A stretch of DNA of 64,000 nt from Candidatus Uhrbacteria bacterium (GTDB lineage Bacteria; Patescibacteriota; Patescibacteriia; 2-12-FULL-60-25): contig RHKK01000003.1 in the NCBI GenBank assembly GCA_008363075.1, forward strand, positions 1 through 64,000, given 5' to 3'. The translations under genes were made by a program, and so were the position numbers. The notes under the pieces are model-generated. The model worked only from the letters and a program-made list of their open reading frames with translations, did no database searches and was not told where the DNA came from. Below, piece after piece: positions 31,211 through 61,507 of the stretch. The first letter of the stretch is position 1; each line of letters starts with the position of its first letter.

Positions 31211-33514
31211 ATGGGCCGTCGCAGAAAGTCATCCGTGGGTCTCCGGATGGAGCCGGAAACAAGGAAGGGGGTCGCCGTCGTGGCCCTCTTCTTCGGCGCA
31301 TTATTCCTACTGCTCACGTTTTTCGACATGGGCGGTGACATCGGTCGCACGGTGAACGAGGGCGTGTCCTATATTTTCGGATGGGACAAGCTCGTGATCC
31401 CGTTTATCCTCATGGCATGGGGATATCACGTGGCTGCCCCGGACCGCTTGCCGCTCCGGTTTTCCAACATGCTCGGGTTCCTGCTCTTTTTCCTTTCGCT
31501 GAACCCGCTTGTGCATGCCGTGACGTTTCCGGAACTCCAGCCCGTGGCTGACGCCGCGCTTTCCGTGGCCGGAGGCAAGCTCGGGGAAAGCGTCGCGATC
31601 CCGCTCGCGCGGATGCTCGGACTGCCCGGGAGCGTCGTCCTCCTGACCGCGCTCTTGGTGATATCACTCTTGCTCATGTTCAATGCCACGCTCCGGCAGG
31701 TGCTGTTTTTCATCGATCTCGTCTGGAAAGGACTGGCGATGTTCCTGAAGGGGCTTTGGTCACCCGTGCGGTCGTGGATGGAAGCGCGCGCCGAGGCGCG
31801 CGCGGCGACTGCGCTGAAACCCTTGGAAGAAGAGGCGGAAGAGGAAACGGGCGAGGAGATCGAAGAGGAGGAAGCGGATGAAGAGACGGAGGAGGTCCAA
31901 GAAGAGGGGCGTGACGAAATTCGCATGTCGCGTCCGAAGCCGAAGAAGCGCTATCCGCGCGTCGAGATCCCGCTCGACCTGCTCGATCGTCGCGATGACA
32001 AGCCGACCTCGGGCGACATCGTGCATAACCGCGAGGTGATCCGACGCACGCTCGAAAACTTCGGCATCCCGGTCGAGATGGCGGAAGTCGCGGTCGGGCC
32101 GACCGTCACGCAGTTCGCATTCAAGCCGTCCGACGGCATCAAGCTTTCGCGCATCACGGGTTTGAATAATGATCTTGCTCTCGCGCTGGCCGCGCACCCG
32201 ATCCGCATCGAAGCGCCGATTCCGGGCAAATCGCTCGTCGGCGTGGAGGTGCCCAACAAGTCCGTCGCGACGGTCGGCGTGCGCGAGATGCTCGAATCTA
32301 GGGAGTTCCGCGAGCGTCGCGGCGGCCTCACCTTCGTGCTCGGCAAGGACGTCTCCGGCAAGGCGTGGACGGCCGATCTCGCCAAAATGCCGCACTTGCT
32401 CGTCGCCGGCGCGACCGGTTCCGGCAAATCCGTGGGCCTGAACGTACTCATCATGTCGTATCTCTACACGCTCGGACCCGATGACGTGAAATTTATCATG
32501 GTGGATCCGAAGCGCGTCGAGCTCCAGGTGTACAACGGCATCCCGCATCTCATCACGCCGGTCATCACAAAGGTTCCGGAAACGGTAAACGCGCTCAAAT
32601 GGGCCCTGCGCGAGATGGACCGCCGCCTCGACTTGCTCGGCAGCATGAACGCGAAGGATATCGCGAGCTATAACATGCGCGTGCAGGACCGGCTGCCGTA
32701 CATCGTCATCATCATCGACGAAATGGCGGATCTCATGGCCGCCTCGGCGGCGGAAGTCGAGGGGCCGATCGTCCGCCTCGCGCAAATGTCGCGTGCCGTC
32801 GGCATCCACCTTGTGCTTGCGACGCAGCGTCCGTCCGTGGACGTGATCACGGGTCTCATCAAGGCCAACGTCCCGGGGCGCATCGCGTTTGCCGTCGCGT
32901 CCGCGACCGACTCGCGCACCATCCTGGACCAGCAGGGTGCGGAAAAGCTGCTTGGCCGCGGCGACATGCTCATCACGTCGAACGAAATCCCCGTTCCGAA
33001 GCGCTTGCAGGGAGCATTCGTCTCGGAGGCGGAAATCGGCCGCGTCGTGGATTTCATCAAATCGAAATACGAACCGCCGGAATACGATGCCTCGGTGGTG
33101 GAACGTTCATCCGGCGGACCGACGGTATTCGGCAACGGCGGCGGCGAGGACGCGGACCCGCTTATTCCCGATGCGAAGGAGGAAATTATTCGAGCGGGCA
33201 AGGCGTCGGCTTCGCTCCTGCAGCGCCGGCTTAAGGTCGGGTACGCGCGAGCCGCGCGCCTGCTCGACCTGCTTGAACAGGAAGGCTTCATCGGTCCGGC
33301 CGACGGAGCAAAGCCGCGCGAAATCCTGAAGGCTGACTTCACCAAGGCGGATCCGCTCGTGGCCAACCGCCGCGCCATTCCTGTGCCGGAACCTGAACCC
33401 GAGGACGAAAAGGATGACGAGGAAATCGAAGACGAGGAGGTGGAAGAGGACGGCGAGGATGCGGGGGAGGAGATGGATGAAGAGATCGAAGAAGAAGAGG
33501 AGGAAGGGGTTTGA
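31211..33514 (+). CDS. ftsK: DNA translocase FtsK/SpoIIIE
   Basis: 767 residues. Four membrane helices lie in the first ~180 residues, then an acidic linker (~200-240; EEEAEEETGEEIEEEEADEE), the alpha/beta motor with Walker A GATGSGKS (400-407) and Walker B VIIIDEMADLM, and the gamma winged helix SASLLQRRLKVGYARAARLLDLLEQEGFIG, which in relatives reads KOPS/SRS sites. A further ~75-residue tail, extremely Glu/Asp-rich, follows the gamma domain, which is unusual. FtsK pumps chromosome ends through the division septum. Downstream of recA, upstream of a RodZ-like gene. Confidence 0.96.
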   Translation: MGRRRKSSVGLRMEPETRKGVAVVALFFGALFLLLTFFDMGGDIGRTVNEGVSYIFGWDKLVIPFILMAWGYHVAAPDRLPLRFSNMLGFLLFFLSLNPLVHAVTFPELQPVADAALSVAGGKLGESVAIPLARMLGLPGSVVLLTALLVISLLLMFNATLRQVLFFIDLVWKGLAMFLKGLWSPVRSWMEARAEARAATALKPLEEEAEEETGEEIEEEEADEETEEVQEEGRDEIRMSRPKPKKRYPRVEIPLDLLDRRDDKPTSGDIVHNREVIRRTLENFGIPVEMAEVAVGPTVTQFAFKPSDGIKLSRITGLNNDLALALAAHPIRIEAPIPGKSLVGVEVPNKSVATVGVREMLESREFRERRGGLTFVLGKDVSGKAWTADLAKMPHLLVAGATGSGKSVGLNVLIMSYLYTLGPDDVKFIMVDPKRVELQVYNGIPHLITPVITKVPETVNALKWALREMDRRLDLLGSMNAKDIASYNMRVQDRLPYIVIIIDEMADLMAASAAEVEGPIVRLAQMSRAVGIHLVLATQRPSVDVITGLIKANVPGRIAFAVASATDSRTILDQQGAEKLLGRGDMLITSNEIPVPKRLQGAFVSEAEIGRVVDFIKSKYEPPEYDASVVERSSGGPTVFGNGGGEDADPLIPDAKEEIIRAGKASASLLQRRLKVGYARAARLLDLLEQEGFIGPADGAKPREILKADFTKADPLVANRRAIPVPEPEPEDEKDDEEIEDEEVEEDGEDAGEEMDEEIEEEEEEGV

Positions 33515-33547
33515 CGTTTCACGTTTCACGCTTCACGCTGCAGGAGT

Positions 33548-34249
33548 ATGGCGTTCGTGACAAAACGATTGAACTCGCCGGGCCGGCTCGGGCCCGATCT
33601 GATCGAGCTGCGCGAACGAGTCGGACTGACCCTTGAGGAGGCGGCGCACAAGACCAAGCTCGCGCCCTCGCTCGTGAAGGCGTTCGAGCGGGAGGAATGG
33701 ACGGAGCTCCCGGACCCGGTATACGCCGAGCGGTTGCTGAAATCGTACGTGTCGTACTTCGGCGCGAACGAATCGTATTATCTCCACAAATTTCGCGAGG
33801 GCCTCGAGGCGCGCGAGATCGTGCGCGACCGCGCGACGCTCCTGCCGCGGCCGATGCGCGTCGGTGCGTTCGAGCTCGCGGTCACGCCGCGCATCCTCGC
33901 GGCCGCGGGATCCCTGTGCTTCACGCTCCTGCTCGGCGGCTACGTGTTTTCGCAAGCGCGCGCGATGTCGGTCGCACCGACGTTACGCGTCGACGCGCCG
34001 GCGGACGGGGAGCGCGTCGAGGATCCGCACGTCATCGTGCGTGGGCGGACCGTGTCCGGCGCGACCGTCACCGTCAACGACGAACCCGCGGTCGTCGGGG
34101 ACGACGGCGGGTTCGAATACGAGCTCAACGTCCCGCGCGGGACGACCGTCATCCGCATCGTGGCGCGCCGGCGGCACGGCAGCGAATCGGTGGAGGCGCG
34201 GCGCGTCATCTACGATCGCCCGCTTCCGACGCTGCCTGAAACGAGATAA
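33548..34249 (+). CDS. RodZ-like membrane protein with N-terminal HTH and Ig-like outer domain
   Basis: 233 residues. Residues 10-85 are an HTH_25/RodZ-type helix-turn-helix (LGPDLIELRERVGLTLEEAAHKTKLAPSLVKAFE, then YVSYFGA). A single membrane helix lies at ~115-135 (ILAAAGSLCFTLLLGGYVF). The outer part (LRVDAPADGERVEDPHVIVRGRTVSGATVTVNDE) resembles a small Ig-like domain common in CPR and Firmicutes envelope proteins. RodZ links the cell-shape machinery to the membrane in other bacteria; here MreB is not in the window, so the role is inferred. Between ftsK and this gene lie short repeats of CGTTTCA/CGCTTCA. Confidence 0.8.
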   Translation: MAFVTKRLNSPGRLGPDLIELRERVGLTLEEAAHKTKLAPSLVKAFEREEWTELPDPVYAERLLKSYVSYFGANESYYLHKFREGLEAREIVRDRATLLPRPMRVGAFELAVTPRILAAAGSLCFTLLLGGYVFSQARAMSVAPTLRVDAPADGERVEDPHVIVRGRTVSGATVTVNDEPAVVGDDGGFEYELNVPRGTTVIRIVARRRHGSESVEARRVIYDRPLPTLPETR

Positions 34250-34301
34250 AAAAGCCCACCTTCTCCCGCGGTACGGCGGGATTCGGCGGATCCAGAGACG
34301 G

Positions 34302-34505
34302 CTAACGCCGACGGAAAAACAGGACGAGGCGCGCGATGAGATCGAGCGCGACCTCGGTGAGGAACATCGCGATCATCGCCAGCATGAAGGCGCTGATCGC
34401 GTCGAGCAGGAGCCAGACACCGACGAACGTGAAGACGCTGACGATCGCGTACACCTTGTGGCGGATCGGCATCTCGCCTTCGTCGAGCGAATCCTTCAGG
34501 CTCAT
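34302..34505 (-). CDS. Small two-helix membrane protein (67 aa)
   Basis: Family unknown. After MSLKDSLDEGEMPIRHK, two hydrophobic helices follow (VYAIVSVFTFVGVWLLLDAI and SAFMLAMIAMFLTEVALDLI), then a basic end RLVLFFRRR. The ATG at 34505 overlaps the stop of a nine-codon upstream frame (ATGA), so it may be translated by coupling. It is the last gene of the leftward island and has its own promoter 65-95 bases upstream. Its short length, acidic head and basic tail suggest an inner-membrane protein with both ends in the cytoplasm. Confidence 0.55.
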   Translation of the reverse strand: MSLKDSLDEGEMPIRHKVYAIVSVFTFVGVWLLLDAISAFMLAMIAMFLTEVALDLIARLVLFFRRR

Positions 34506-34531
34506 GCGATTCCCTGCGGCCGTTCGTTCAC
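34502..34531 (-). CDS. Nine-codon leader frame coupled to the 67-aa membrane protein
   Basis: GTG at 34531 follows GGGAGGAAATC, a strong ribosome site; it encodes nine residues (MNERPQGIA, the first from GTG) and its TGA overlaps the next ATG. The strong site belongs to this mini-frame and not to the main gene, so it probably delivers ribosomes to it. Confidence 0.4.
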   Translation of the reverse strand: MNERPQGIA

Positions 34532-34569
34532 GATTTCCTCCCGTAAAGCCGTCGTCGAGACGGACGATC

Positions 34570-34599
34570 ACCATAGCCAAACGCGTCGATTTTGTCCAA
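34570..34599 (-). promoter_or_regulatory. Promoter of the 67-aa membrane protein gene
   Basis: Read leftward: TTGGAC, 18 bases, TATGGT. Confidence 0.5.
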
Positions 34600-34611
34600 T
34601 CCCGTTTATCA

Positions 34612-34682
34612 ATCAAAGAAGGGCCCCGCCGTCCGCCGCTTGTCCCGTCGGATGACGGGATGCGGCAGAGTTTGGGGCCCTC
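34612..34682 (-). terminator. Branched terminator after the 34733 gene
   Basis: Read leftward: GGGCCCC ... GGGGCCC then TTCTTTGATT; inside are GCCGC/GCGGC and CCCGTC-atcc-GACGGG stems. Confidence 0.7.
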
Positions 34683-34732
34683 AGGGGGCTTGCCCGGTCG
34701 GACCTGTCCCGTCGAATAACGGGGTGACCGGG

Positions 34733-35800
34733 TCACTCGTCGGAGCTCTCCTCAGATGACTCGCTGTCACCTTGGGACGAATCAGCGAGGGAAGCATCGC
34801 GGCCGAGCATGACTCGTTGGAGCTCTTCCAGAAGCTTGCCTCCGCGCTCGACGAGCATTGCATTGAGCCGGTCTTCGTCAAGGGCGGTTCCCTTTGCAGG
34901 ATCGAACTCTTCGAGAAGCTCCTCGAACATCATCTTTGCCTTAGCGAAGGGATCCGGAGTCACCCGTCGCGGGTACCGATAGTACTCCGCCGCGAGCTGA
35001 TCGAGATCATCGAGCATGCCGGGGATGATCATCATCAGGTTCTCGACCATCTGCGCGTCGAGCAGCGCGATCGCGCCGGCGACGCCGTGCCGCTTTCGGT
35101 CCGGAACCTCGAACACATCTCCCTTCTTCTCGAGCTTGTCGCGATCGGGAAGGCGTACGAGAACGATCTCGGTTGCGTCGTTATCCAAGGGTCGCGCTTG
35201 CACCCAGTGCGCCTTCGCCGGGTGTCCCGGCTCCCCCGACTTCTCGAACGTTGGACGGAAGAGCACCCCCGGCGATTCCATGGCGCCGAGCAGATCGGAG
35301 AACCTGACGCGGATCCTACCCGGTCGGTGATTCCGCCGATCCGTGACGCGGCGCACGGCTCCTCGCATGCACTGCGGATCACCGAGATCCGCCGCCGCGA
35401 ATAGCGGCCGAAGATGGAAGATCTCCGGCTGGAAGGGTTCTCCCGCCGCGTTCGAGAACGCGATCTTCGCGCCTTCGCGATCGACGGCCATACCGTTGAA
35501 GGCGAAGTCGACGATCTCGGACGCGACCTTCTCGTACGGGAATTCCGTGTTTTCCATGTGCTCGAGCGGGAAGTGCAGCTCGAATTCGATGGAGGGATTG
35601 CCGGGCCGTCGCGGATCGGCGAATACCGACGCCTGCCAGCAGAAGCGCCGGGCCAATGCTTCCGCGAGCTCGGGGTCATCCGAGTTCGAGACGGGCATGC
35701 GGCCCTTCTCGATCGCATCGGCCAGGAGCTCCGAGCCCACGAGGAGTCCCCGGGCGGTCATGGGTCGCTTTCGACGACCTCGGCTTCTGTTCTTGCCCAT
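34733..35800 (-). CDS. Unrecognised 355-residue protein, island gene
   Basis: Family not recognised. The ATG at 35800 follows AAGGGAGGCCCGC. The start is basic (MGKNRSRGRRKRPMTARG), the centre is mixed with phrases such as RRFCWQASVFADPRRPGNPS and SEIVDFAFNGMAVDREGAK, and the end is very acidic and Ser-rich (SQGDSESSEESSDE). No signal peptide or membrane segment; three or fewer cysteines. A basic head with an acidic tail could mean nucleic-acid or protein binding, but this is only composition. It is the largest protein of the leftward island and is followed by a branched terminator. Confidence 0.6.
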   Translation of the reverse strand: MGKNRSRGRRKRPMTARGLLVGSELLADAIEKGRMPVSNSDDPELAEALARRFCWQASVFADPRRPGNPSIEFELHFPLEHMENTEFPYEKVASEIVDFAFNGMAVDREGAKIAFSNAAGEPFQPEIFHLRPLFAAADLGDPQCMRGAVRRVTDRRNHRPGRIRVRFSDLLGAMESPGVLFRPTFEKSGEPGHPAKAHWVQARPLDNDATEIVLVRLPDRDKLEKKGDVFEVPDRKRHGVAGAIALLDAQMVENLMMIIPGMLDDLDQLAAEYYRYPRRVTPDPFAKAKMMFEELLEEFDPAKGTALDEDRLNAMLVERGGKLLEELQRVMLGRDASLADSSQGDSESSEESSDE

Positions 35801-36241
35801 GCGGGCCTCCCTTCTCCCGGTATACGCCGGACGTTTCTTTGTCCGGGACATCCGGACGGATCTGGAGGTCAACACCGACGCGCCAAAAGGCGGATGGCGT
35901 TGGGCGTGGCGTCGCGTCGAGGCGCCCGGCGTATGCTGGGGACCTCTTCGCGTCGCCTGATCGCCGTTCCTCCATATCGATCCGGATGTCGATGAAACGT
36001 GCGGGAACCGGCCAGGCGAACCCTTGGGAGGATGTCGCCTGACCGGTAGCAGGGCGTCTTCACGATGAAGAGCCGGTCGGATCGGAAAAACGGAACGCAA
36101 TAATGTAAGATGATTCGTTCTTTTTCCTCACCGCGGGCTTGTCTTATTCGTGTCGGACTCGGGAGCCGAGGAATCGGCTCCCGGGGAGACACGCCGTCCC
36201 ACGGAACGCTTGCGCGCTCGACGTGAGACGGGGTCAGGGAA
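35801..36241. other. 441-base gene-free region inside the island
   Basis: No convincing gene. A hairpin GGGAGCCGA-ttcc-TCGGCTCCC (about 36160-36181) follows the stop of the 36242 gene without a T run. The rest is the probable leader of the 34733 gene; a frame read leftward from 35975 overlaps that gene out of frame and lacks a ribosome site. Confidence 0.4.
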
Positions 36242-37063
36242 TCAGAATGCGCCGGTCGTCCAGCCCCCGGTGCCCGGAGGAGGAAGATCCTCGCTCTGGA
36301 CGCCGGCAAAGCGGATCGTGAGCCATCCGGTCGGGACGTCCTCACCGGGACGATACATGGCGACGCGGCCCGAGTCGCGCGGGTATCCCGCAGGAGACAG
36401 CGCGACGCAGGCAGCGGAGACGGGGATGTCGCCGTCGGAGAGATGCCAGTCATCCCAGTGAATCCAGTGCAAGCCGTCCTGCACGGTCCCGAGGATGTTC
36501 CAACCCTCACTCGCCTCGTGGAGATCGACGCACACGTGCGTCGAGCGCTCGCCGACGCGAATGCGTATCCCCGTCCACACCATGCAGCCCGTGGAGCGGA
36601 GTCGTCGACCTCTTTGGTCGACGAAGTTCCTGCACAAGCGGGAGTTGGGTTCGTCGTCGGCAACCGATCTGAACGGAGTCCAGTCGAGCCGGAGTTGCGA
36701 GCGCAGGCCGGCCGCGGGGAGTGTGGTTCGCTCCTCGCCGTCGATCATGCGCGCCGCGAACGCCGAGCCCGTAATTTCCGGAAGTTGGTGGCGGCTCTCG
36801 AGCCACTGCCCCCACTCGCGGTAGGCGTCGTTCACTTCGAATCCGATCGCGAGCTGCGCGATGTGTTCGCGTCCGTGCGAGACCGGCTCGTTGCCTACGA
36901 CCGAGTCGTATGCTTCGCCGATCGTCTCGGATGCGGGACCGGCGAGCTCGTTGACCGTATCGCCCCCGGCCTCGAAGAACTCGGGGACGTAGTAGATCGC
37001 GGGTCCGACGAAGAGCAGCGCCCAGAACAAGCGCCAGTCCTTGTGCCATTGCCAATTGCTCAT
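36242..37063 (-). CDS. Unrecognised single-pass membrane protein (273 aa), island gene
   Basis: Family not recognised. The ATG at 37063 follows AAAGGAACATGCC. MSNWQWHKDWR precedes one membrane helix (LFWALLFVGPAIYYVPEFF), after which come ~240 residues that should be outside the cytoplasm or cytoplasmic depending on orientation; positive charge before the helix favours an outward C-terminus. The outer part is tryptophan-rich (GWNILGTVQDGLHWIHWDDWHL) and has a few cysteines (LCRNF, TGCMVW, HVCVDL, AACVAL) that could pair. It ends PPPGTGGWTTGAF. Confidence 0.55.
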   Translation of the reverse strand: MSNWQWHKDWRLFWALLFVGPAIYYVPEFFEAGGDTVNELAGPASETIGEAYDSVVGNEPVSHGREHIAQLAIGFEVNDAYREWGQWLESRHQLPEITGSAFAARMIDGEERTTLPAAGLRSQLRLDWTPFRSVADDEPNSRLCRNFVDQRGRRLRSTGCMVWTGIRIRVGERSTHVCVDLHEASEGWNILGTVQDGLHWIHWDDWHLSDGDIPVSAACVALSPAGYPRDSGRVAMYRPGEDVPTGWLTIRFAGVQSEDLPPPGTGGWTTGAF

Positions 37064-37132
37064 GGCATGTTCCTTTCTGTTCCGACGTGATGTCGGGACG
37101 AAATCTTGGTTGACGATACGCGTGATGGAATG

Positions 37133-37201
37133 TGCGATCTCATCGGCCGACAAAGGTCCGCCGATCGGATCGCACGGGATGACGAGAGCTTCGTCATCCC
37201 G
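37133..37201. repeat. Double-hairpin element after the 37223 gene
   Basis: Hairpin 1: CGGGATGACG with CGTCATCCCG (10 bp). Hairpin 2: outer TGCGATC/GATCGCA and inner ATCGGC/GCCGAT separated by internal loops. Same layout as the elements at 38.1, 39.6 and 40.1 kb. Confidence 0.6.
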
Positions 37202-37222
37202 AGGTTGGGGTTGTGGTTGATG

Positions 37223-37585
37223 TTATGCTGCGCCCTTCTTGCGCCGGACGAGCTCCGCGCGCCGGGCGGCGAGCTCATGCTGCGACGGGATGGGCGGCAG
37301 CGACGGGGTTGCCGCCGGCCGCTTGTCCTCGTCACCGAGGAGCTCCGAGAAACTCCGGTTGAAGCTCGCCTCCGCTTCGGCGTTGAAGCGCTCGATCCAC
37401 GTGGGATCGGAGTGCCTCTCGCAGTTTTCCTCGCTCGCTTCGAAGCTCGCGATCGGGGTGTTGCACTCGAGCTGGAAGTCGATCGCGAGATCGATTTCCT
37501 CGTCGAGCGCCGTGTCTTGCTCATACCCCACCGTGGGGTTGAGCCGGACGAACTCGCGCTGCGCACGCGTCAGGTTCTGCTGCAT
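37223..37585 (-). CDS. Unrecognised 120-residue protein, island gene
   Basis: Family not recognised. The ATG at 37585 follows AAAGGAGCTGCACG. MQQNLTRAQREFVRLNP is helical, the middle is acidic (DTALDEEIDLAIDFQLE) with two cysteines, and the end is basic (ELAARRAELVRRKKGAA) after a Pro-rich linker. Soluble, with no membrane segment. Its 3' side carries a double-hairpin element. Composition suggests a small adaptor or scaffold, but nothing specific can be claimed. Confidence 0.55.
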   Translation of the reverse strand: MQQNLTRAQREFVRLNPTVGYEQDTALDEEIDLAIDFQLECNTPIASFEASEENCERHSDPTWIERFNAEAEASFNRSFSELLGDEDKRPAATPSLPPIPSQHELAARRAELVRRKKGAA

Positions 37586-37854
37586 CGTGCAGCTCCTTTC
37601 TTTTCGGCGAGCGGTAGGCTGGTTTTGCTCCTACATCGCCAAACTCGATGTCTGAAGGAATTCAGGAATCGGGTTTGACGGGCGAACGAGAGGCAGTTGC
37701 AAGCTGCATGGCTCGCCGTCAGTAGGTGTTGTGAACGAAGGAACGTGGAGGAACGTCGGGTTGCCGTGGGTTGAGACCCGCGTTCGTGAGTCCCGATGTG
37801 AGCCGGGGTCTGTCGAACCGCGGTCCGTTGGCGTGGCGTCCGTTCCGGAAGCGG

Positions 37855-38052
37855 CTAGGTGCGCATCCCCCTCTTGCGCCAGCCCTCGAAGAAGGACTCG
37901 TTCTCCTCCTCGGGTGCCATGACGTCCTCCGGCAGAGCGACGAAGAGATCGCTCGTGCGAGAGGGGCGAGTCGCCGCCACGAACTCTTCGACGACCGCCA
38001 GATCGGCGACGTCGATGAGTACGGGAACGGAGCGGGGGTGACGGTTGCTCAA
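37855..38052 (-). CDS. Small acidic protein (65 aa), island gene
   Basis: Family not recognised. The start is a TTG at 38052, six bases after GGGAGG, so the ribosome site decides it. The protein reads MSNRHPRSVPVLIDVADLAV, then VEEFVAATRPSRTSDLFVAL, then an acidic segment (APEEENESFFEGW) and a basic end (RKRGMRT). The VLIDVADLAVVEEFVA stretch could be a strand-helix unit. A much longer frame on the same strand runs through the neighbouring gene in another phase and is spurious. Confidence 0.5.
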   Translation of the reverse strand: MSNRHPRSVPVLIDVADLAVVEEFVAATRPSRTSDLFVALPEDVMAPEEENESFFEGWRKRGMRT

Positions 38053-38089
38053 ATGATTCCTCCCTTGCGGATGTAATGGCTCCGCATGG

Positions 38090-38163
38090 CCCGACTCGAG
38101 ACTTGATCGATAGATCAAGGATCGGGTCGGGCGAGCGAGTGACGGATAATCCATCACTCGCTC
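38090..38163. repeat. Double-hairpin element between the 38178 and 37855 genes
   Basis: Hairpin 1: GAGCGAGTGA with TCACTCGCTC (10 bp). Hairpin 2: outer CCCGA/TCGGG, inner TTGATC/GATCAA with internal loops. Confidence 0.6.
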
Positions 38164-38177
38164 CAGCCACAGGATGG

Positions 38178-39110
38178 TCAAGCGGTTGCGGCGAGGTCGC
38201 GCAAGAGCTGTTGCCGCTTCCACCGGTTGAACGGCGGGAGCGATGCGCCCTTGGCGCGTGCCGCGTTGTACTCCTGGAGGAGGGCGGCCTCGCGGTTCTC
38301 GGCCTCGCGCTTCTTGCGCTCGGCCGCGGCCGCCTGCTCGGCCTTGACCTGGTCGATCTCGGCCCTCACGCGGGAGATGAGCCCGCGCAGGTTGCGCTTC
38401 CTTACCCGGATCGGCTCCGGGTGGAAGTGCGCGAGCTCGCGCAGGTCCTTGACCTTGCGGAGCTTCGCGAGCTCCTGCAGGAGACCCTTGTATTCGCTCG
38501 CGAGCAGACGGCGAGCCGAGCCGTACTCCGGCGGCGGCGCCTTCTTGACCGCCTCGAGCTTCTTGGTCTCGACAACCTCGGTCGGAGCCGCCTCGGCGAC
38601 GGACTCCTCCGCCTTGGTCTCGATGACCTCGGCGGAAGCGGACTCCGTGGCGGTCGCCTCGAGCTTCTCCAGCAGCACGGCTCCGAGTCCCGTGCTCGGG
38701 GTCTCGGCCATCGTCGGCGGCGTGTGCTTGGCGAGCGCGAGCGCGCCCTTGTTGAAGTCCGCCTCGAGACGCCGCAGCTCCTCGAGGGAGAGTCCCTTGA
38801 GGCTCCCTTTCCGTCGCGCGCCCTTGCCACTGTGCTTGCGCACAAGGCGCTCGAAGTTCGCACGCGCGTGCTCGCAGCGCTTGCGCGCCGCCGCGAGCTC
38901 GGCCTCGCTCGTGAGCGCGACGAGCGCCGGCGAGGGCTTCTCGACCGGCTTCGGCGTCTCGACGGGCTCCGCGAGCTTGAGGCTCGGGGCCGGCGCTGCG
39001 AACTCGATCTCGATCCGCTCGTCGGCGCGCACCGGCGCGACGAGCAAGAGGGCGCGGTCCGTGACCGCGTTGATGGCCGCATATGCGCGGCCGACCAGCT
39101 TCTTCAGCAT
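38178..39110 (-). CDS. Coiled-coil, Ala/Glu/Lys-rich protein (310 aa), island gene
   Basis: Family not recognised. The ATG at 39110 follows AAGGAGGTTCCG. MLKKLVGRAYAAINAVTD is a helix, followed by long helical, strongly charged stretches (SEAELAAARKRCEHARANFE, VIETKAEESVAEAAPTEVVE, RVRAEIDQVKAEQAAAAERK) that should form coiled coils, with PxP spacers between. It ends in FNRWKRQQLLRDLAATA. Such low-complexity helical proteins are often structural or scaffold proteins. The + strand also has a long frame here, but it lacks a ribosome site and mirrors the codon pattern. Confidence 0.6.
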   Translation of the reverse strand: MLKKLVGRAYAAINAVTDRALLLVAPVRADERIEIEFAAPAPSLKLAEPVETPKPVEKPSPALVALTSEAELAAARKRCEHARANFERLVRKHSGKGARRKGSLKGLSLEELRRLEADFNKGALALAKHTPPTMAETPSTGLGAVLLEKLEATATESASAEVIETKAEESVAEAAPTEVVETKKLEAVKKAPPPEYGSARRLLASEYKGLLQELAKLRKVKDLRELAHFHPEPIRVRKRNLRGLISRVRAEIDQVKAEQAAAAERKKREAENREAALLQEYNAARAKGASLPPFNRWKRQQLLRDLAATA

Positions 39111-39290
39111 CGGAACCTCCTTGGTGCGGTTGGTTGTGATCCGCACGTCCGTCGCGAGGCCGGAACGAAAAACAGTCCGGTTTCCTGACGGACGTGCGGA
39201 AAGCACGTCCTGTGGTGGTAGAAGGATCAGTCCACCGGAGGCCGAACGGCGTAGGTGGATGAATGTACGGGCGAAAACGGCATTCGCCCT
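39111..39290. other. Leader region of the 38178 gene
   Basis: 180 bases; contains the hairpin GGACGTGC-tttcc-GCACGTCC (about 39190-39211) and a second hairpin GGGCGAA-tgccgtt-TTCGCCC just past the stop of the 50-codon frame. No gene seen. Confidence 0.35.
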
Positions 39291-39443
39291 TCACATCCAT
39301 CCGTCCACGGTTTTGGAGGCGGAAATGGTCCATACTGGTCCGAAGACCGATGGATCCGGGCGACGTTGGTCGAGAAGTCCCAGTCGAAACCGAGTCTTCA
39401 CGATTCGCGTCGCCATAGCCCGCCGACAAAAGCCGACCGGCAT
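39291..39443 (-). CDS. Candidate 50-codon gene in the island
   Basis: The ATG at 39443 sits directly after GGAGGAGGT; the frame runs 50 codons and its stop is followed by a perfect 7-bp hairpin. The product starts MPVGFCRRAMATRIVKTRFR and ends TISASKTVDGWM; basic at the front, no membrane segment. Support comes only from the ribosome site and the hairpin, and the spacing between GGAGG and ATG is short. It could be a false call. Confidence 0.3.
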   Translation of the reverse strand: MPVGFCRRAMATRIVKTRFRLGLLDQRRPDPSVFGPVWTISASKTVDGWM

Positions 39444-39484
39444 ACCTCCTCCAAAACTGTGTACGGATAGTTTTTTTACCGTTC

Positions 39485-39570
39485 ATCATCCCGACCGAGG
39501 AGCGTAGCGACGAGCGGAGGGATCGCTTCGAAGGGATCCCTCGGCTTCGTCGAACTCCGCTCGGGATGAT
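39485..39570. repeat. Long imperfect palindrome
   Basis: Outer arms ATCATCCCGA and TCGGGATGAT (10 bp) enclose further complementary sequence (GGATC/GATCC, GAGCGGAG/CTCCGCTC). It resembles the other branched palindromes in the window. Confidence 0.6.
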
Positions 39571-39584
39571 TCGGCGATGCTTGC

Positions 39585-39630
39585 AAAGATCAGCATCAGG
39601 GATCGACTGATCGATCTCTCGTGCTGATCG
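39585..39630. repeat. 46-base island repeat, copy A
   Basis: 44 of 46 bases match copy B (40064-40109). It folds into a bipartite stem: outer GATCAGCA/TGCTGATC and inner GATCGA/TCGATC. A second palindrome, CGACGAGTGAATTCACTCGTCG, follows. It lies 3' of the leftward 39682 gene. Confidence 0.8.
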
Positions 39631-39681
39631 ACGAGTGAATTCACTCGTCGTCAGGAATGGGTGGAAGGTTCGCGTTCGTGA

Positions 39682-40011
39682 TCAGGCCGCCGAGTCCTGC
39701 ATCTCGGCGGCGCGCATGTCCGCCATCGAGTCGAGACGCGCGATCACGCGCTCGAGCGCGTCCGCGAGCTTCTCGTGCTCGTGGTCGCCCGTGTGCATCG
39801 TGCACACGAGCAGGACCGCCTCCGCCGACGCGCGCTTGCTCTGCGGCAGGTGCTCGATCGGCGTCGCCATGAGCTCTTCGCAGCCGAGCGCCTCGATCAG
39901 CTCGTCGGCGTCGACCGGGCGCAACTCGCCCTCCACGGTCGTGCCGTGACGGGGCTTCACGTGATCGAGGGCCTTCTTGAGCATCTCGCGCAAAGGATTC
40001 TTCTTCGCCAT
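39682..40011 (-). CDS. Unrecognised 109-residue protein, island gene
   Basis: Family not recognised. The ATG at 40011 follows TGGAGGAATGAGGCA. MAKKNPLREMLKKALDHVKP is a basic helix; the middle is acidic (DADELIEALGCEELMAT); the second half is a likely amphipathic helix with a His/Asp/Glu cluster (CTMHTGDHEHEKLADALERV). Two cysteines and that cluster might bind a metal, but spacing gives no known motif. Soluble. It is followed by repeat copy A and a palindrome. Confidence 0.58.
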   Translation of the reverse strand: MAKKNPLREMLKKALDHVKPRHGTTVEGELRPVDADELIEALGCEELMATPIEHLPQSKRASAEAVLLVCTMHTGDHEHEKLADALERVIARLDSMADMRAAEMQDSAA

Positions 40012-40063
40012 TGCCTCATTCCTCCAGTCGAAATACTGCGGTGATGGCCAAGTGGCCGGTTGG

Positions 40064-40109
40064 AAAGATCAGCATCAGGGATCGAGTGATCGATCTCTCG
40101 TGCTGACCG
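40064..40109. repeat. 46-base island repeat, copy B
   Basis: Two differences from copy A (39585-39630). It is followed by a different hairpin, CGGCGAAC-aagctgc-GTTCGCCG, in the place of the copy-A palindrome. It lies 3' of the leftward 40155 gene. Confidence 0.8.
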
Positions 40110-40154
40110 GCGAACAAGCTGCGTTCGCCGTCAGGGTGGAAGTTGCGGATGGAG

Positions 40155-40352
40155 CTAGCGCCGGCGGTTCGCCTTGCCGACGCGGACCTTCCAGTCCACG
40201 CCCATGAAGGGCCGGGGCCTGGGCGCGTCGATGAGCATGGGGCTCGACGAACGCTTGCGGTTGCGCATGGAGTCGCACGGCGAGCGCATCCAGGCCTCGA
40301 TCTCCGCCTCGCTGGCACGGTAGGCGGTCTGCGAACGGTGTCCGTCGAGCAT
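40155..40352 (-). CDS. Small basic protein (65 aa), first gene of the island
   Basis: Family not recognised. The ATG at 40352 follows TTAGGAGGAGCG. The protein begins MLDGHRSQTAYRASEAEIEA, continues with WMRSPCDSMRNRKRSSSP and ends VDWKVRVGKANRRR; it is strongly basic toward the C-terminus, with one cysteine. It may bind nucleic acid, by charge only. It is the promoter-proximal gene: a near-consensus promoter lies 75-103 bases upstream, divergent from rpoB, and the whole 34.3-40.4 kb series could be read from it. Confidence 0.5.
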   Translation of the reverse strand: MLDGHRSQTAYRASEAEIEAWMRSPCDSMRNRKRSSSPMLIDAPRPRPFMGVDWKVRVGKANRRR

Positions 40353-40426
40353 CGCTCCTCCTAAAGATCATGACCCCGGAAATCCGCTTGGGAGCATCCC
40401 TCACGGTTTTCAGAGTCGAACGTATA

Positions 40427-40455
40427 AGGATAACACAAAAAGACGATCTTGTCAA
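40427..40455 (-). promoter_or_regulatory. Island promoter
   Basis: Read leftward: TTGACA, 17 bases, TATCCT; leader of about 68 bases. Confidence 0.75.
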
Positions 40456-40628
40456 GATATGTGTGACAATTTTCTATCCATAAATAACCAAATTTAGCTA
40501 ATTAAAGCACTTATATATTTTTATTGTTTTTAAATAGCCGACAATTTTGGCTAATAAAAGCGCAATTTGTGGATATCTCGAGCTTTTCAATTCTAAGAAA
40601 ACCAAGATTTGTTTATTTTTAGCGATTT

Positions 40629-40687
40629 TTGACAAAACATTCCTTCCACACTTTATTCTTGACGATTATTCATTGGGTTGTTAGAAT
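40629..40687 (+). promoter_or_regulatory. Tandem rpoB promoters
   Basis: P1: TTGACA, 17 bases, TTTATT (40629-40657). P2: TTGACG, 17 bases, TAGAAT (40659-40687). P2 is the better match and would start RNA near 40694. Confidence 0.75.
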
Positions 40688-40693
40688 TCGCCC

Positions 40694-41050
40694 ACAACAG
40701 TGCGATTTGACATCCCGCATTTTGCGGGATATCGGACGGTTTCCGGACAACCGATCCTCATGAGCGACCACACACAAAATTGAAGCCCCTCCTTTAACCC
40801 CCGTTGGGAGGTGTTTTACTTGCCCCGTGATCCGCTTGCGGATTTTACGGGGATCCGGTCCTCATCAGCTTGTCGCGCTGTCTTTCATTCATCCCTAGGG
40901 TTTGTGCGTGCCTGTACGGTCACCGACTTCCCCGGCCGCCGTGTCTCATGCCGCGTGCCCCGTATAAAGCGCAAGCGCTCTACGGGGTTTACGCGGTCGC
41001 CGGTCCCGTGCGGACGCGCACTCCGAAAACCCGCAGCCCCCACATCGCCC
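40694..41050 (+). promoter_or_regulatory. Long structured leader of rpoBC
   Basis: About 357 bases between P2 and the rpoB ATG. It carries ATCCCGC-atttt-GCGGGAT (40712-40730); a terminator-like CCCTCC ... GGGAGG-TGTTTT (40787-40817); and two similar hairpins closed by CCCCGT/ACGGGG (40823-40852 and 40958-40987). The layout suggests attenuation or protein-mediated control. An open frame in phase with rpoB crosses it but is not conserved-looking. Confidence 0.55.
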
Positions 41051-44000
41051 ATGCCTGCGATGCAATTCCGCCGCCAAGCTCCGAAGGATTTGGAACGGCG
41101 CTATTTCACGGCCGCGCGCGACGCCATGGCGTTGCCCGACCTGATCGAGATCCAGAAGACCAGTTACCGCTGGTTCGTCGAGGAAGGAATCCGCGATCTC
41201 TTTAAGGAGATCTCGCCGATCAAGGACTTCATCGGACGAGACCTCGAGCTTCATTTCGTCGACTACTATTTTGACGAGCCGAAGTTCGACGAGAAGACGT
41301 CCAAAGCGAAAAACGTCAACTTTGAGGCGCCGTTGCGCGTGAAGTTGAAGTTGATCAACAAGCGCAACAACATGGAGAAGGAATCCGAGGTGTACCTCGG
41401 CGATTTGCCGCTCATGACCGACCGCGGCACGTTCATCGTGAACGGTATCGAGCGCGTGGTCGTCTCGCAGTTGGTGCGTTCCGCCGGCGCGTTCTTCGCC
41501 GCGGAACTTCTGCACAACCGTCGCTACTACGGCGCGAAGATCATCCCGAACCGCGGTGCGTGGCTCGAGTTCGAGACCGACGGCAACAACGTCATCTGGG
41601 TGAAGATCGACCGCAAGCGCAAGGTCGCCGCGACGGCGCTTCTGCGCGCATTCGGCATCGGATCGAACGAGGAGATCTCGCAGCTGTTCACCGACGTCGA
41701 CGTCCATCCGATGAACAAGTACATCGAGGCGACGCTCGCGAAAGACGTTTCGACGAACGAGGACGAGGGATATATCGAGGTGTACAAGCGCATCCGTCCG
41801 GGCGATCTCGCCACGGCCGACAACGCGCGCTCGCTGATCCATTCGATGTTCTTCAACTTCGACCGGTACGATTTGGGAACGGTGGGTCGCTACAAATTCA
41901 ACAAGCGCTTTAGCCTCACCACCGAGCACGAGGTGATCTCGAAGGAAGAGAACCGTATCCTCACCAAGGAGGACCTGATTCACATCTTGCGCGAGATCAT
42001 CCGCTTGAACGTGTCGCAGGAAGATGCGGACGACGTGGACCACCTGGGGAACCGTCGTGTGCGCGCGGTGGGCGAACTCGTTCAGAGCCGCTTCCGCATC
42101 GGTCTCGCGCGCATGGAGCGCATCGTCAAGGATCGCATGTCCACGATGGACATCGACGCGCTCAATCCCGCGAAACTCATCAACGCGCGTCCGGTGATCG
42201 GCGCGGTTCGCGAGTTTTTCATGAGCTCGCAGCTGTCGCAATTCATGGACCAGACGAATCCGCTGTCCGAGCTCGAGCATAAGCGCCGCTTGTCCGCGAT
42301 GGGACCGGGGGGCCTCACGCGCGAGCGCGCCGGCTTCGACGTCCGCGACGTACACCGCACACACTACGGCCGCATCTGCCCGATCGCGTCTCCGGAAGGT
42401 CCGAACATCGGCCTTGTGGGCCACTTGTCATGTTACGCGCGCATCAACGATTACGGCTTTATCGAGGCTCCGTATCGCGTCGTGAAGAACTGGGCCAAGA
42501 ACGACGGGAAGGACGCCGTCGGTGAAGTGCTGCGCGTGGACGTGCGCGACGGCGAAGGAAACGTCGTCGCGAAAGGCGGAACAGAGGTCGACAAAAAGCT
42601 CGCGGAAAAGCTTGCGAAGGTTTCGATCGACAAGGTGCCGGTTCACCCGACCGTCACGAAGGAGATCGTGTACCTCAACGCCTTTACGGAAGAGCGCGGT
42701 ACGACCGCGCCGGCCACGACGCCGATCGGCAAGGACGGCAAGTTCCTCGTCGAGCGCGCGGCCGCCCGCAAGAACGGCGAGCCGACGGTCGTCGACGTGC
42801 ATGAGATCGACTACGTCGACGTATCTTCGAAGCATATTCTTTCCATCGGCACGTCGCTCATTCCGTTCGTCGAACACGACGATGGTCACCGCGCGCTCAT
42901 GGGTACGAACATGCAACGACAGGCCGTGCCGTGCGTGAAACCGGATGCGCCGATCGTAGGCACGGGCGTCGAACGTCGCGTCGCTATCGACGCGGGCCAC
43001 GCCGTGATCGCTCCGGACGACGGCGTGATCGTGTCCGTATCGGGCAAGCACATCGAGTTCCAGGGTTCCGACAAGACCATCCGCCGCTACGATCTCATCA
43101 AATTCCAGCGCTCGAACCACTCGACCTGCCTGAACTATCGCCCGGCGGTCACGAAGGGGCAAAAAGTGTATGCCGGCGAAGTCCTCGCCGACGGCACGTC
43201 CGTCCAGCACGGCGAGCTCGCGCTCGGTCAGAACCTGCTGTGCGCCTTCTTGTCCTGGGACGGCTATAACTACGAAGACGCCATCATCCTCTCCGAGCGC
43301 CTGGTGCACCAGGATCGGTTCACGTCGATCCACATCGAACATCACGTGATCGATGTGCGCGACACGAAACTCGGTCCGGAAGCCGTGACGAGCGACATCC
43401 CGAATGTCTCGGAAGAAAAACTCCGCAACTTGGACGAGCACGGCATCGTGCGCATCGGCGCGGAGGTGAAGTCCGGCGATATTCTCGTCGGCAAGATCAC
43501 GCCCAAAGGCGAAACCGACTTGTCCGCGGAAGAAAAACTCTTGCGCGCGATTTTCGGCGAAAAGGCGCGCGACGTGCGCGACTCGAGCTTGTATCTCGAG
43601 CACGGCGAAAAAGGAAAAGTCATCGACGTGAAAACCTTCTCGCGCGACGCGGGCGACAAATTGCAGCCCGGCGTGTTGAAGCAAATCGTCGTGACCGTGG
43701 CCGACCTGCGTAAGGTGCAGGTGGGCGACAAACTTGCCGGCCGCCACGGCAACAAGGGCGTCATCTCCAAGATCGTGCCGGTTTCCGACATGCCGTTCCT
43801 CGAGGATGGCACTCCGGTGGACGTGATCCTCTCGCCGCTCGGCGTCGTCTCCCGCATGAACCTCGGGCAAATCCTCGAGACGCACCTCGGCCTCGCGGCG
43901 AACGCGTTGGGCTACCTGGTCGCGACGCCGGTGTTTGACGGCGTGCCGGAAGACACGATCCGCGAAGAGCTCAAGAAGGCCGGGTTCCCGGAAGACGGAA

Positions 44001-60342: not shown

Positions 60343-60562
60343 GTTTGTCTGTCGAATGCAAAAAGAAATCCGACCCCTTTCAGATCGGATTCTACATGGT
60401 GGACCAAGCTGGTAGAAGCTCGAACCGATCTCGCTGGAAGTCCTAGACTGACACGCAATCGTGGTGCTCCTGGGGACAAGCGCCCGTTCTTTGCGTCTCT
60501 TCCACCACCCACAGAACGGGCGTCGTGAACATATGATGAGACCGCTACATTTCCATTCCCAT
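60343..60562. other. Gene-free region before the recombinase, with inverted repeats
   Basis: Holds AATCCGA/TCGGATT (about 60367-60391), a stretch sharing TGGTGGACCA with the 3' end of tRNA-Ala (about 60397-60406), and a 10-bp inverted repeat CGCCCGTTCT/AGAACGGGCG (about 60480-60523). It could include a recomb­ination site for the adjacent recombinase; not shown. Confidence 0.35.
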
Positions 60563-61507
60563 ATGCACACCCCATCACCCCGCTACATCATGTACGCTCG
60601 CCGGTCCTCGGACCGCGACGACATGCAGCTCCTCTCGCTCGAGCAGCAGTTCACCATCCTCCGCGAGGTCGCCTTCACGCGGAACCTCGAGGTCGTCGCC
60701 GAGCTCACCGAGAGCGCCTCGGCCAAGGAGCCCTCGCGCCCCGGCTTCCTCGACCTCGTGAAGCGCATCGAGAAGGGCGACGCCGACTCCATCCTTGTGT
60801 GGAGGCTCGACCGCCTCGCCCGGAACGCCATGGACGGCGGCCACCTCATCCACCTGCTCTCGACCGGCAACCTCAAGTTCATCGTGACGCCCGAGGCGAC
60901 GTACACCGGGAGCGGCGACGCGAAGTTCATGCTCGCGATGCTCTTCGGCGCGGCGGCGAAGTACTCGGACGACCTCGCGACGGCCGTGAGGCGCGGCGAG
61001 GAGGCCGTGCTCCGGCAGGGCAAGATCCCGGGGCCTGTACCCCTCGGATACATGAAGACGCACGAACACGAGACGACTCCGGGAGCCGGCACCGTGATGC
61101 GCGACCCCGAGCGCTTCGAGCTCGTGAAGCGCATCTGGAAAGAGGTGCTTGGCGGCAACACGAACGTCCGCGAGGTCTGGCGGCAGGCGCTCTCCTGGGG
61201 TCTCTCGACGAGGCCCGCCAAGGCGACGCTCTCCAAGCCGGTCTCGGTCGCCATCATCTACGCGCTTCTCAAGAACCCCTTCTACGCAGGCAAGGTGAAG
61301 TGGGGCGAGCGTCTCTTCGATGGCGAGCACCCGCCCATGGTCACGTGGGAGGAGTTCGAGCGCGTGCAGAAGATGATCCGTCGCGACCACCGGAAGGCGG
61401 GAGCGGCCATCCACCACGACTTCCTCTTCCATGGGCTCGTCCACTGCCACTGCGGCCGAGCGCTCGTCGGCGAGCGGCACGCGAAGCACGGCCACGCCTG
61501 GGATTAG
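60563..61507 (+). CDS. Large serine recombinase, truncated in its zinc ribbon
   Basis: 314 residues from the ATG at 60563 (60533 or 60590 are alternatives). The resolvase domain reads YIMYARRSSDRDDMQLLSLEQQ with the catalytic Ser in RRSS, then WRLDRLARNAMDGGHL. The recombinase domain follows (VPLGYMKTHEHE, NPFYAGKVKWGERLF). The zinc ribbon starts HGLVHCHCGRALVGERHAKHG and then stops: the second cysteine pair (usually YxYYRC) and the ~150-residue coiled-coil end are missing. Full enzymes have ~450-550 residues. The break coincides with the change to unrelated sequence, so it is likely an artefact or recent rearrangement. Confidence 0.85.
   Translation: MHTPSPRYIMYARRSSDRDDMQLLSLEQQFTILREVAFTRNLEVVAELTESASAKEPSRPGFLDLVKRIEKGDADSILVWRLDRLARNAMDGGHLIHLLSTGNLKFIVTPEATYTGSGDAKFMLAMLFGAAAKYSDDLATAVRRGEEAVLRQGKIPGPVPLGYMKTHEHETTPGAGTVMRDPERFELVKRIWKEVLGGNTNVREVWRQALSWGLSTRPAKATLSKPVSVAIIYALLKNPFYAGKVKWGERLFDGEHPPMVTWEEFERVQKMIRRDHRKAGAAIHHDFLFHGLVHCHCGRALVGERHAKHGHAWD

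Follow-up and report, generated by a model that had tools for sequence, protein, structure and literature searches.

The interval between a RodZ-like gene and rpoB in a Candidatus Uhrbacteria genome (contig RHKK01000003.1) is filled by eight leftward protein genes, which very probably belong to an inherited, fast-diverging and strongly promoted operon that is fixed at this position in one family of Ca. Uhrbacteria. The genes were analysed within a stretch of 64 kb (hereafter the window) of this 1.1-Mb genome, which is 99.9% complete and, judged by rpoB, stands closest to Ca. Uhrbacteria among named genomes (best match 85% over 270 residues). A first-pass annotation of the window had described the interval as an island of nine unrecognised genes. 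This is too narrow, as the same interval, here called the slot, is filled throughout the family. Taken together, its position and promoter, the order of its genes and sequence profiles indicate that the apparent orphans are one inherited locus.

A filled slot upstream of rpoB

On its left the slot is bounded by the RodZ-like gene (HTH_25 domain, 33548-34249), which is preceded by FtsK, and on its right by rpoB. The names g1 to g9 follow the order of the first-pass annotation, from which 'g3' was dropped (see below). All eight genes show a high GC content at third codon positions (GC3, 0.76-0.94) and score as coding with codon statistics trained on the core genes of the window. The strong Shine-Dalgarno (SD) sites reported earlier are clear in seven of the eight; that of g9 (GCAGGGAATCGC) is weak. 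The features are as follows (C- and G-ending, fractions of codons ending in C or G; TM, transmembrane; HMM, hidden Markov model).

40456-40800, no strand: divergent control region, AT-rich, separating operon and rpoB, GC 0.23-0.49 in 100-nucleotide (nt) bins
40427-40455, minus strand: operon sigma-70 promoter, TTGACA-17-TATCCT with extended -10 (TG), 10/12 matches
40155-40352, minus strand: g1, 65 amino acids (aa), basic C-terminus (GKANRRR), SD AGGAGG, GC3 0.94
39682-40011, minus strand: g2, 109 aa, predicted helical 'IHKG'-domain protein, profile match E=0.001
39111-39681, minus strand: structured g2-g4 spacer with the non-coding 'g3' open reading frame (ORF; 39443-39291), folding z -10.9
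38178-39110, minus strand: g4, 310 aa, A/E/K-rich, helical, SD AAGGAGG, GC3 0.92, C-/G-ending 0.97/0.96
37855-38052, minus strand: g5, 65 aa, TTG start, SD GGGAGGA, GC3 0.85
37223-37585, minus strand: g6, 120 aa, SD AAAGGAG, GC3 0.87-0.88
36242-37063, minus strand: g7, 273 aa, hydrophobic N-terminus, found with an HMM of three slot proteins
35801-36241, minus strand: structured spacer of 441 nt preceding g8, folding z -10.5
34733-35800, minus strand: g8, 355 aa, alpha/beta, acidic tail, candidate member of the distal large-protein family (HMM of 19 relatives)
34506-34732, minus strand: g8-g9 spacer with a GC-rich hairpin (read by eye) and a weaker promoter (promoter scan)
34302-34505, minus strand: g9, 67 aa, two-TM protein by two hydrophobic segments, GC3 0.90

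The regions upstream of rpoB were fetched from the family and two outgroups, and a slot was called closed when the RodZ/FtsK and rpoB flanks lay on one contig, which was the case in 23 family genomes. In all 23 the slot holds 2.3-8.6 kb with mainly leftward genes, and none of these closed genomes has an empty site. Many other relatives have contigs that begin inside the slot.

A conserved promoter that points away from rpoB

The near-consensus promoter that was said to head the series is present: it begins at 40455 and points away from rpoB. In 27 of 34 family genomes, a leftward TTGACA-17-TATAxT promoter is found on the upstream side of rpoB, at a distance of 310-650 nt. In the named set, a leftward promoter with at least 10/12 matches was found in 10 of 16 family-like loci, where 0.2 were expected. 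The promoter is present in only four of 61 loci that are more distant. Three of these four (L156, L158 and L165) carry a leftward gene that had already been picked by a GC3 screen for leftward genes well above rpoB, with GC3 values of 0.91, 0.94 and 0.76 compared to 0.52, 0.51 and 0.23 for the respective rpoB.

Motifs similar to TTAGCCAA/TTGGCTAA recur within the control region of the window. The motif GGCTAA occurs six times in the corresponding region of the relative G027, four times in G057 and three times each in G018 and G013 (0.27 expected). The region also contains a rightward promoter (TTGACG-17-TAGAAT) at 40659 and a DnaA box with one mismatch at 40568. Exact DnaA boxes are found in G018, G027, G009 and G049, that is in just 4 of 36 regions, and DnaA boxes were therefore rejected as a family feature. 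In the rpoB leader (40781-40817, plus strand) a hairpin is followed by TTTT (TTGAAGCCCCTCC...GGGAGGTGTTTT), and the leaders of G018, G027 and G009 are visibly alike. By its sequence, this hairpin looks like an attenuator of rpoBC.

Homologues in the same order in neighbouring slots

Within genera, BLAST finds a large distal slot gene that is shared. A profile of this large protein, built from 13 members of three genera, picks up the proteins at the matching position in three further genera with E-values from 3e-5 to 3e-3, and in leave-one-out profiles the positional homologue was the first non-training match in 17 of 20 genomes. The resulting family comprises 20 genomes, in which the gene is single copy and confined to the slot; g8 is leftward and distal. 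With the HMM of the 19 relatives, g8 is the best ORF of the window (E 2.8 in 3,882 sequences, single-test p ~7e-4) and ranks third among all non-training sequences, which is suggestive of membership but not proof.

The clearest homologue is g2. An HMM of four slot proteins from G009, G018 and G027 placed it at the top of 3,882 ORFs and decoys, with E=0.001 compared to 0.36 for the next match. Outside G000 and G018, no member of this IHKG family was found in 240 genomes of the class; G009 and G027 are not among the genomes listed. For g7, an HMM of three N-terminally anchored slot proteins gave g7 as the best non-training match in 3,882 sequences (E 1.4, single-test p ~4e-4). The order g2, g7, g8 matches the order of the homologues in the slots of the neighbours. 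A weak single-sequence match links g1 to the first slot gene of G027 (p 0.0027); the HMM did not confirm it. Single-sequence comparison of window and slot genes with hhalign gave mostly noise with decoys mixed in.

In BLAST-level protein searches of 56 related genomes, g7 and g8 were found solely in the window's own genome, a result that by itself would class them as orphans. Absence from close relatives, which the first-pass annotation had named as a sign against its reading, is thus what ordinary sequence search returns, and profiles together with synteny overturn it. The suggestion that the genes are specific to the candidate phyla radiation (CPR) is supported at the level of the family by position, orientation, promoter and the homologues of g2, g7 and g8.

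Two peculiarities of individual relatives were noted. The slot of G018 encodes three tandem IHKG-domain paralogues (L036:13966-16528, minus strand). In G026, the large slot protein (L060:3797-5383, plus strand) carries an inserted RecR zinc-finger/Toprim segment at residues 96-191, which matches positions 66-161 of RecR (TIGR00615, zinc finger and Toprim) with E 4.9e-17. As this match occurs in one of the 20 members of the family, it reflects an insertion and not family identity; a normal recR is present elsewhere in G026, and no argument is built on it.

Rapid divergence and extreme codon use

The slot proteins diverge much faster than their surroundings. Between G018 and G027, rpoB is 93% and FtsK 78% identical, whereas the large proteins reach a local alignment score of 48; g8 of the window scores 35-50 against all other large proteins. 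Within genera, similarity between large proteins goes along with that of the core genes (Mantel p 0.001, all pairs included), and from one genus to another it barely tracks FtsK distance (rho 0.11). For G012 and G030, the ratio of non-synonymous to synonymous substitution rates (dN/dS) is 0.2-0.3 in most slot genes compared to 0.03-0.05 in FtsK and RodZ, a pattern that indicates purifying selection on functional but loosely or diversely constrained proteins.

In G018, four slot genes have a GC3 of 0.94-0.97, while the maximum in 301 ORFs sampled from 360 kb is 0.85 and the slot spacers have a GC content of 54%. In the window, g1, g2 and g4 (GC3 0.92-0.94) exceed EF-Tu (0.87) as well as rpoB and rpoC (0.83-0.86). 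The C-ending and G-ending fractions of the slot genes mostly equal or exceed those of EF-Tu, and the rise in C-ending codons goes in the same direction as in EF-Tu and is stronger. Most likely, the synonymous sites are under strong selection for expression and perhaps also for message stability. The synonymous rate dS was not used as proof of codon selection; it is 0.62 for G012/G030, as in rpoB, and saturated for G031/G058.

The cumulative GC-skew minimum of the window lies at 19.5 kb beside dnaN and dnaA (dnaA at 19.9-21.3 kb; both named from sequence). If this minimum is the origin, the operon lies near it on the lagging strand and head-on to replication. Faster mutation and adaptation have been argued for head-on genes (PMC6220195, PMC7451550), a claim that is disputed (PMC9098457). 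Head-on orientation is at most a possible contributor to the fast divergence.

No match to known families or folds

The statement that the genes match no recognised family holds. Pfam and PHROGs gave no match of note for the slot proteins of the window (g9 matches PHROGs weakly, E 0.2), and PADLOC gave none below E 0.02 (best, a partial Cas3 match, E 0.02); in the relatives, 3 of 85 slot proteins have weak PADLOC matches. Scans of the slot genes of the window and of 85 slot proteins from relatives detected no integrase, terminase, capsid, relaxase or replication gene, and no toxin-antitoxin, nuclease or sensor domain was recognised. Neither tblastn of g8 against phages nor the scanning of viral contigs for g7 and g8 gave a match.

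AlphaFold2 was run on the large protein, using the G012 homologue with a 20-sequence alignment. The model has a predicted local distance difference test score (pLDDT) of 68 with a core at 75-95, residues 110-280 being the confident core. Its best Foldseek matches have E 0.31 (PDB) and 0.053 (viral structures), with none at 0.001. The AlphaFold model of the IHKG domain shows a confident helical fold (pLDDT 87-96 over the N-terminal 100 residues), for which Foldseek found no specific match, all hits being four-helix-bundle look-alikes with E near 1. A sequence search of the PDB with the large-protein and IHKG alignments and with g7 gave nothing below E 1. The predicted models of these two slot-protein families thus match no solved fold. 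In the literature on orphan loci of Uhrbacteria or Patescibacteria, no report of this locus was found.

Predicted membrane proteins of the slot

The first-pass annotation had proposed one two-pass and one single-pass membrane protein. The former is g9, with two predicted TM helices, and two-TM proteins of 56-89 aa recur in slots. The N-terminal hydrophobic stretch of g7 stays below the TM cut-off used. In G018, G027 and G009, however, the related proteins are clearly anchored by an N-terminal TM segment and have an extracytoplasmic Cys-containing domain, and a single-pass topology of g7 is therefore plausible, not proven. Hydrophobic segments are found only in g7, g9 and possibly g5, and most slot proteins are without signal peptide or TM segment. 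The surface, attachment or symbiosis apparatus that the first-pass annotation had suggested is a conjecture. In size and topology the small two-TM proteins resemble phage holin-type proteins; however, the slot contains neither an endolysin nor phage structural genes.

Spacers, hairpins and the rejected 'g3'

The ORF called 'g3' (39443-39291, 50 codons) was rejected as a gene. Its GC3 is 0.61, its coding score is negative, and its SD is part of an inverted repeat (39299-39322/39445-39468) whose 24-nt arms are 88% complementary. Therefore the slot has eight genes instead of the nine originally counted.

A 54-nt hairpin repeat is present before g2 and in the g2-g4 spacer (40060-40113 and 39581-39634, minus strand, 93% identical); elsewhere in the genome it has one short partial match and no further copy. 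In the g8-g9 spacer, a hairpin GGGCCCC...GGGGCCC, which was seen by eye and is not in the output of the terminator scan, is followed by TTCTTT. A promoter weaker than that of the operon, TGGACA-17-TATGGT, lies at 34598 upstream of g9. Because of this hairpin and promoter, g9 may be a separate transcript. No convincing end-to-end pair of direct repeats was found in 33000-41500 among the 20 largest repeat families, repeats below 14 nt not being excluded, and Rfam gave no match in the same region up to E 1.

Interpretation and alternative explanations

We propose that the slot encodes an abundant assembly, which would combine the helical proteins g2 and g4 and the large, acidic-tailed alpha/beta protein g8 with small membrane anchors, g7 and g9. 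Judged from its sequence, very high expression of the operon is probable, and the spacer hairpins would protect each cistron or set its dose. The simplest reading of the rapid divergence would be a contact surface that changes under pressure from an outside partner, either a phage or a host cell. Taken as a whole, an inherited, highly expressed operon for a partly membrane-anchored assembly is the best explanation, and we see it as about evenly poised between right and wrong. That this membrane-linked assembly is engaged in an arms race is a tentative suggestion.

Several observations weigh against this explanation. Other intergenic spaces of the window are strongly folded as well (z to -8.8). 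Intergenic hairpins were therefore rejected as a special mark of the island: they are a habit of the genome, and only their extent in the island is unusual. In G018 the G-ending fraction of slot genes is 0.96-0.98 compared to 0.48 in EF-Tu and 0.41-0.48 in ribosomal proteins (ORFs read as such), so that translational selection alone fails to explain the codon use. The large protein was not recognised in 6 of the 23 closed slots. For g1, g4, g5, g6 and g9 no homologue was confirmed; HMMs built for families resembling them failed to pick them up. The homology of g7 and g8 rests on rank and a small single-test p, with no significant database E-value. Finally, a serine recombinase-like gene in the window shares the codon use of the slot genes (GC3 0.90, G-ending 0.94), which leaves room for a mobile past or origin.

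The slot could be a mobile block that was domesticated or is replaced time and again. In this case a module of viral or plasmid origin would have entered the site in the ancestor of the family, and the swapping of its genes by recombination would cause the fast turnover and the odd codon use. The recombinase-like codon use, the many contigs of relatives that start within the slot, the missing fold and family matches, the small two-TM protein near the distal end and the poor agreement with FtsK between genera all fit such a block. However, neither the slot genes of the window nor the 85 slot proteins of relatives include any of the hallmark genes listed above, g7 and g8 have no viral or phage match, all closed slots are filled, promoter and order are conserved and similarity within genera follows the core genes. 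We consider a mobile block unlikely, and the acquired element that had been suggested earlier is disfavoured by the lack of integrases and phage hallmarks, by the absence of empty closed sites and by homologues in positional order. Lineage-specific ORFan or hypervariable islands are similar in their fixed site between core genes, their unrecognised genes and the large differences between relatives. The slot differs from them in that its genes run in one orientation behind one conserved strong promoter, its homologues are single copy and keep their order, its synonymous bias is extreme and mobility genes are lacking; moreover, it is never empty in closed genomes.

An anti-phage or inter-bacterial conflict cassette that diversifies under attack seems unlikely to us as well. 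Rapid divergence under purifying constraint, the tandem paralogues in G018, the capture of the RecR zinc-finger/Toprim segment in G026 and the weak PADLOC matches in relatives would suit it. On the other hand, no PADLOC family matched the window proteins below E 0.02, and no toxin-antitoxin, nuclease or sensor domain was recognised. Defence genes are usually neither single copy nor locked to one site, and the single copy and fixed site of the slot genes would be unusual for them.

A growth-linked housekeeping set, for example partners of RNA polymerase, the nucleoid or the ribosome, could use the rpoB control region to match the supply of polymerase. Such a set would agree with the fixed divergence from rpoB, the shared AT-rich control region, the position near oriC, the basic and acidic tails and the exact DnaA boxes in four relatives. 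However, housekeeping proteins that work with RNA polymerase or the ribosome do not as a rule change so far that BLAST no longer recognises them, as the slot proteins do while rpoB stays ~90% identical, and g7 and g9 look membrane-linked; this explanation is improbable. A mis-called or non-coding region (structured RNA or spurious high-GC ORFs), for which the strong RNA folding, the long antisense ORFs typical of high GC3 and the loss of 'g3' could be cited, is largely refuted by the SD sites, the codon scores, a dN/dS of about 0.2 in relatives and the profile homology of g2, and is hardly credible.

Orphans make up much of the gene content of the CPR, and whether they are noise, imports or fast-evolving core parts can seldom be decided. 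The inherited operon described here offers a concrete target of about eight ORFs beside rpoB, which is recognisable by synteny in any Uhrbacteria bin, and a test case for why some strongly promoted genes evolve fast. It may be, though this is doubtful, that the operon encodes a novel cellular assembly of several proteins in Ca. Uhrbacteria, and perhaps in other ABY1 lineages too. Such an assembly would be wired to the control region of rpoB, its proteins would rank with the most strongly produced in the cell, and it would diversify in conflict with phages or host cells. If true, a central part of Uhrbacteria biology would be invisible to ordinary annotation, because each genus seems to have its own orphans.

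Additional observations in the window and in other lineages

The serine recombinase-like gene lies at 60461-61507 (plus strand; MYARRSSDRDDMQLLSLEQQ... WRLDRLARNAMDGG). It was named from its sequence alone and ends shortly after a zinc-ribbon-like CHCG motif.

Five loci of other Uhrbacteria lineages (L131, L137, L141, L142 and L167) have the same slot filled with proteins of 397-493 aa that carry N-terminal CxxC pairs. These slots share the site upstream of rpoB and the raised GC3 with the family. They differ in that the genes run rightward, and the large-protein profile found no member among their slot proteins. In more distant Patescibacteria (L173 and L177), a leftward lipoprotein-like gene of 172-173 aa is located upstream of rpoB, with a GC3 of 0.65 and 0.68 compared to 0.35 and 0.38 for rpoB.

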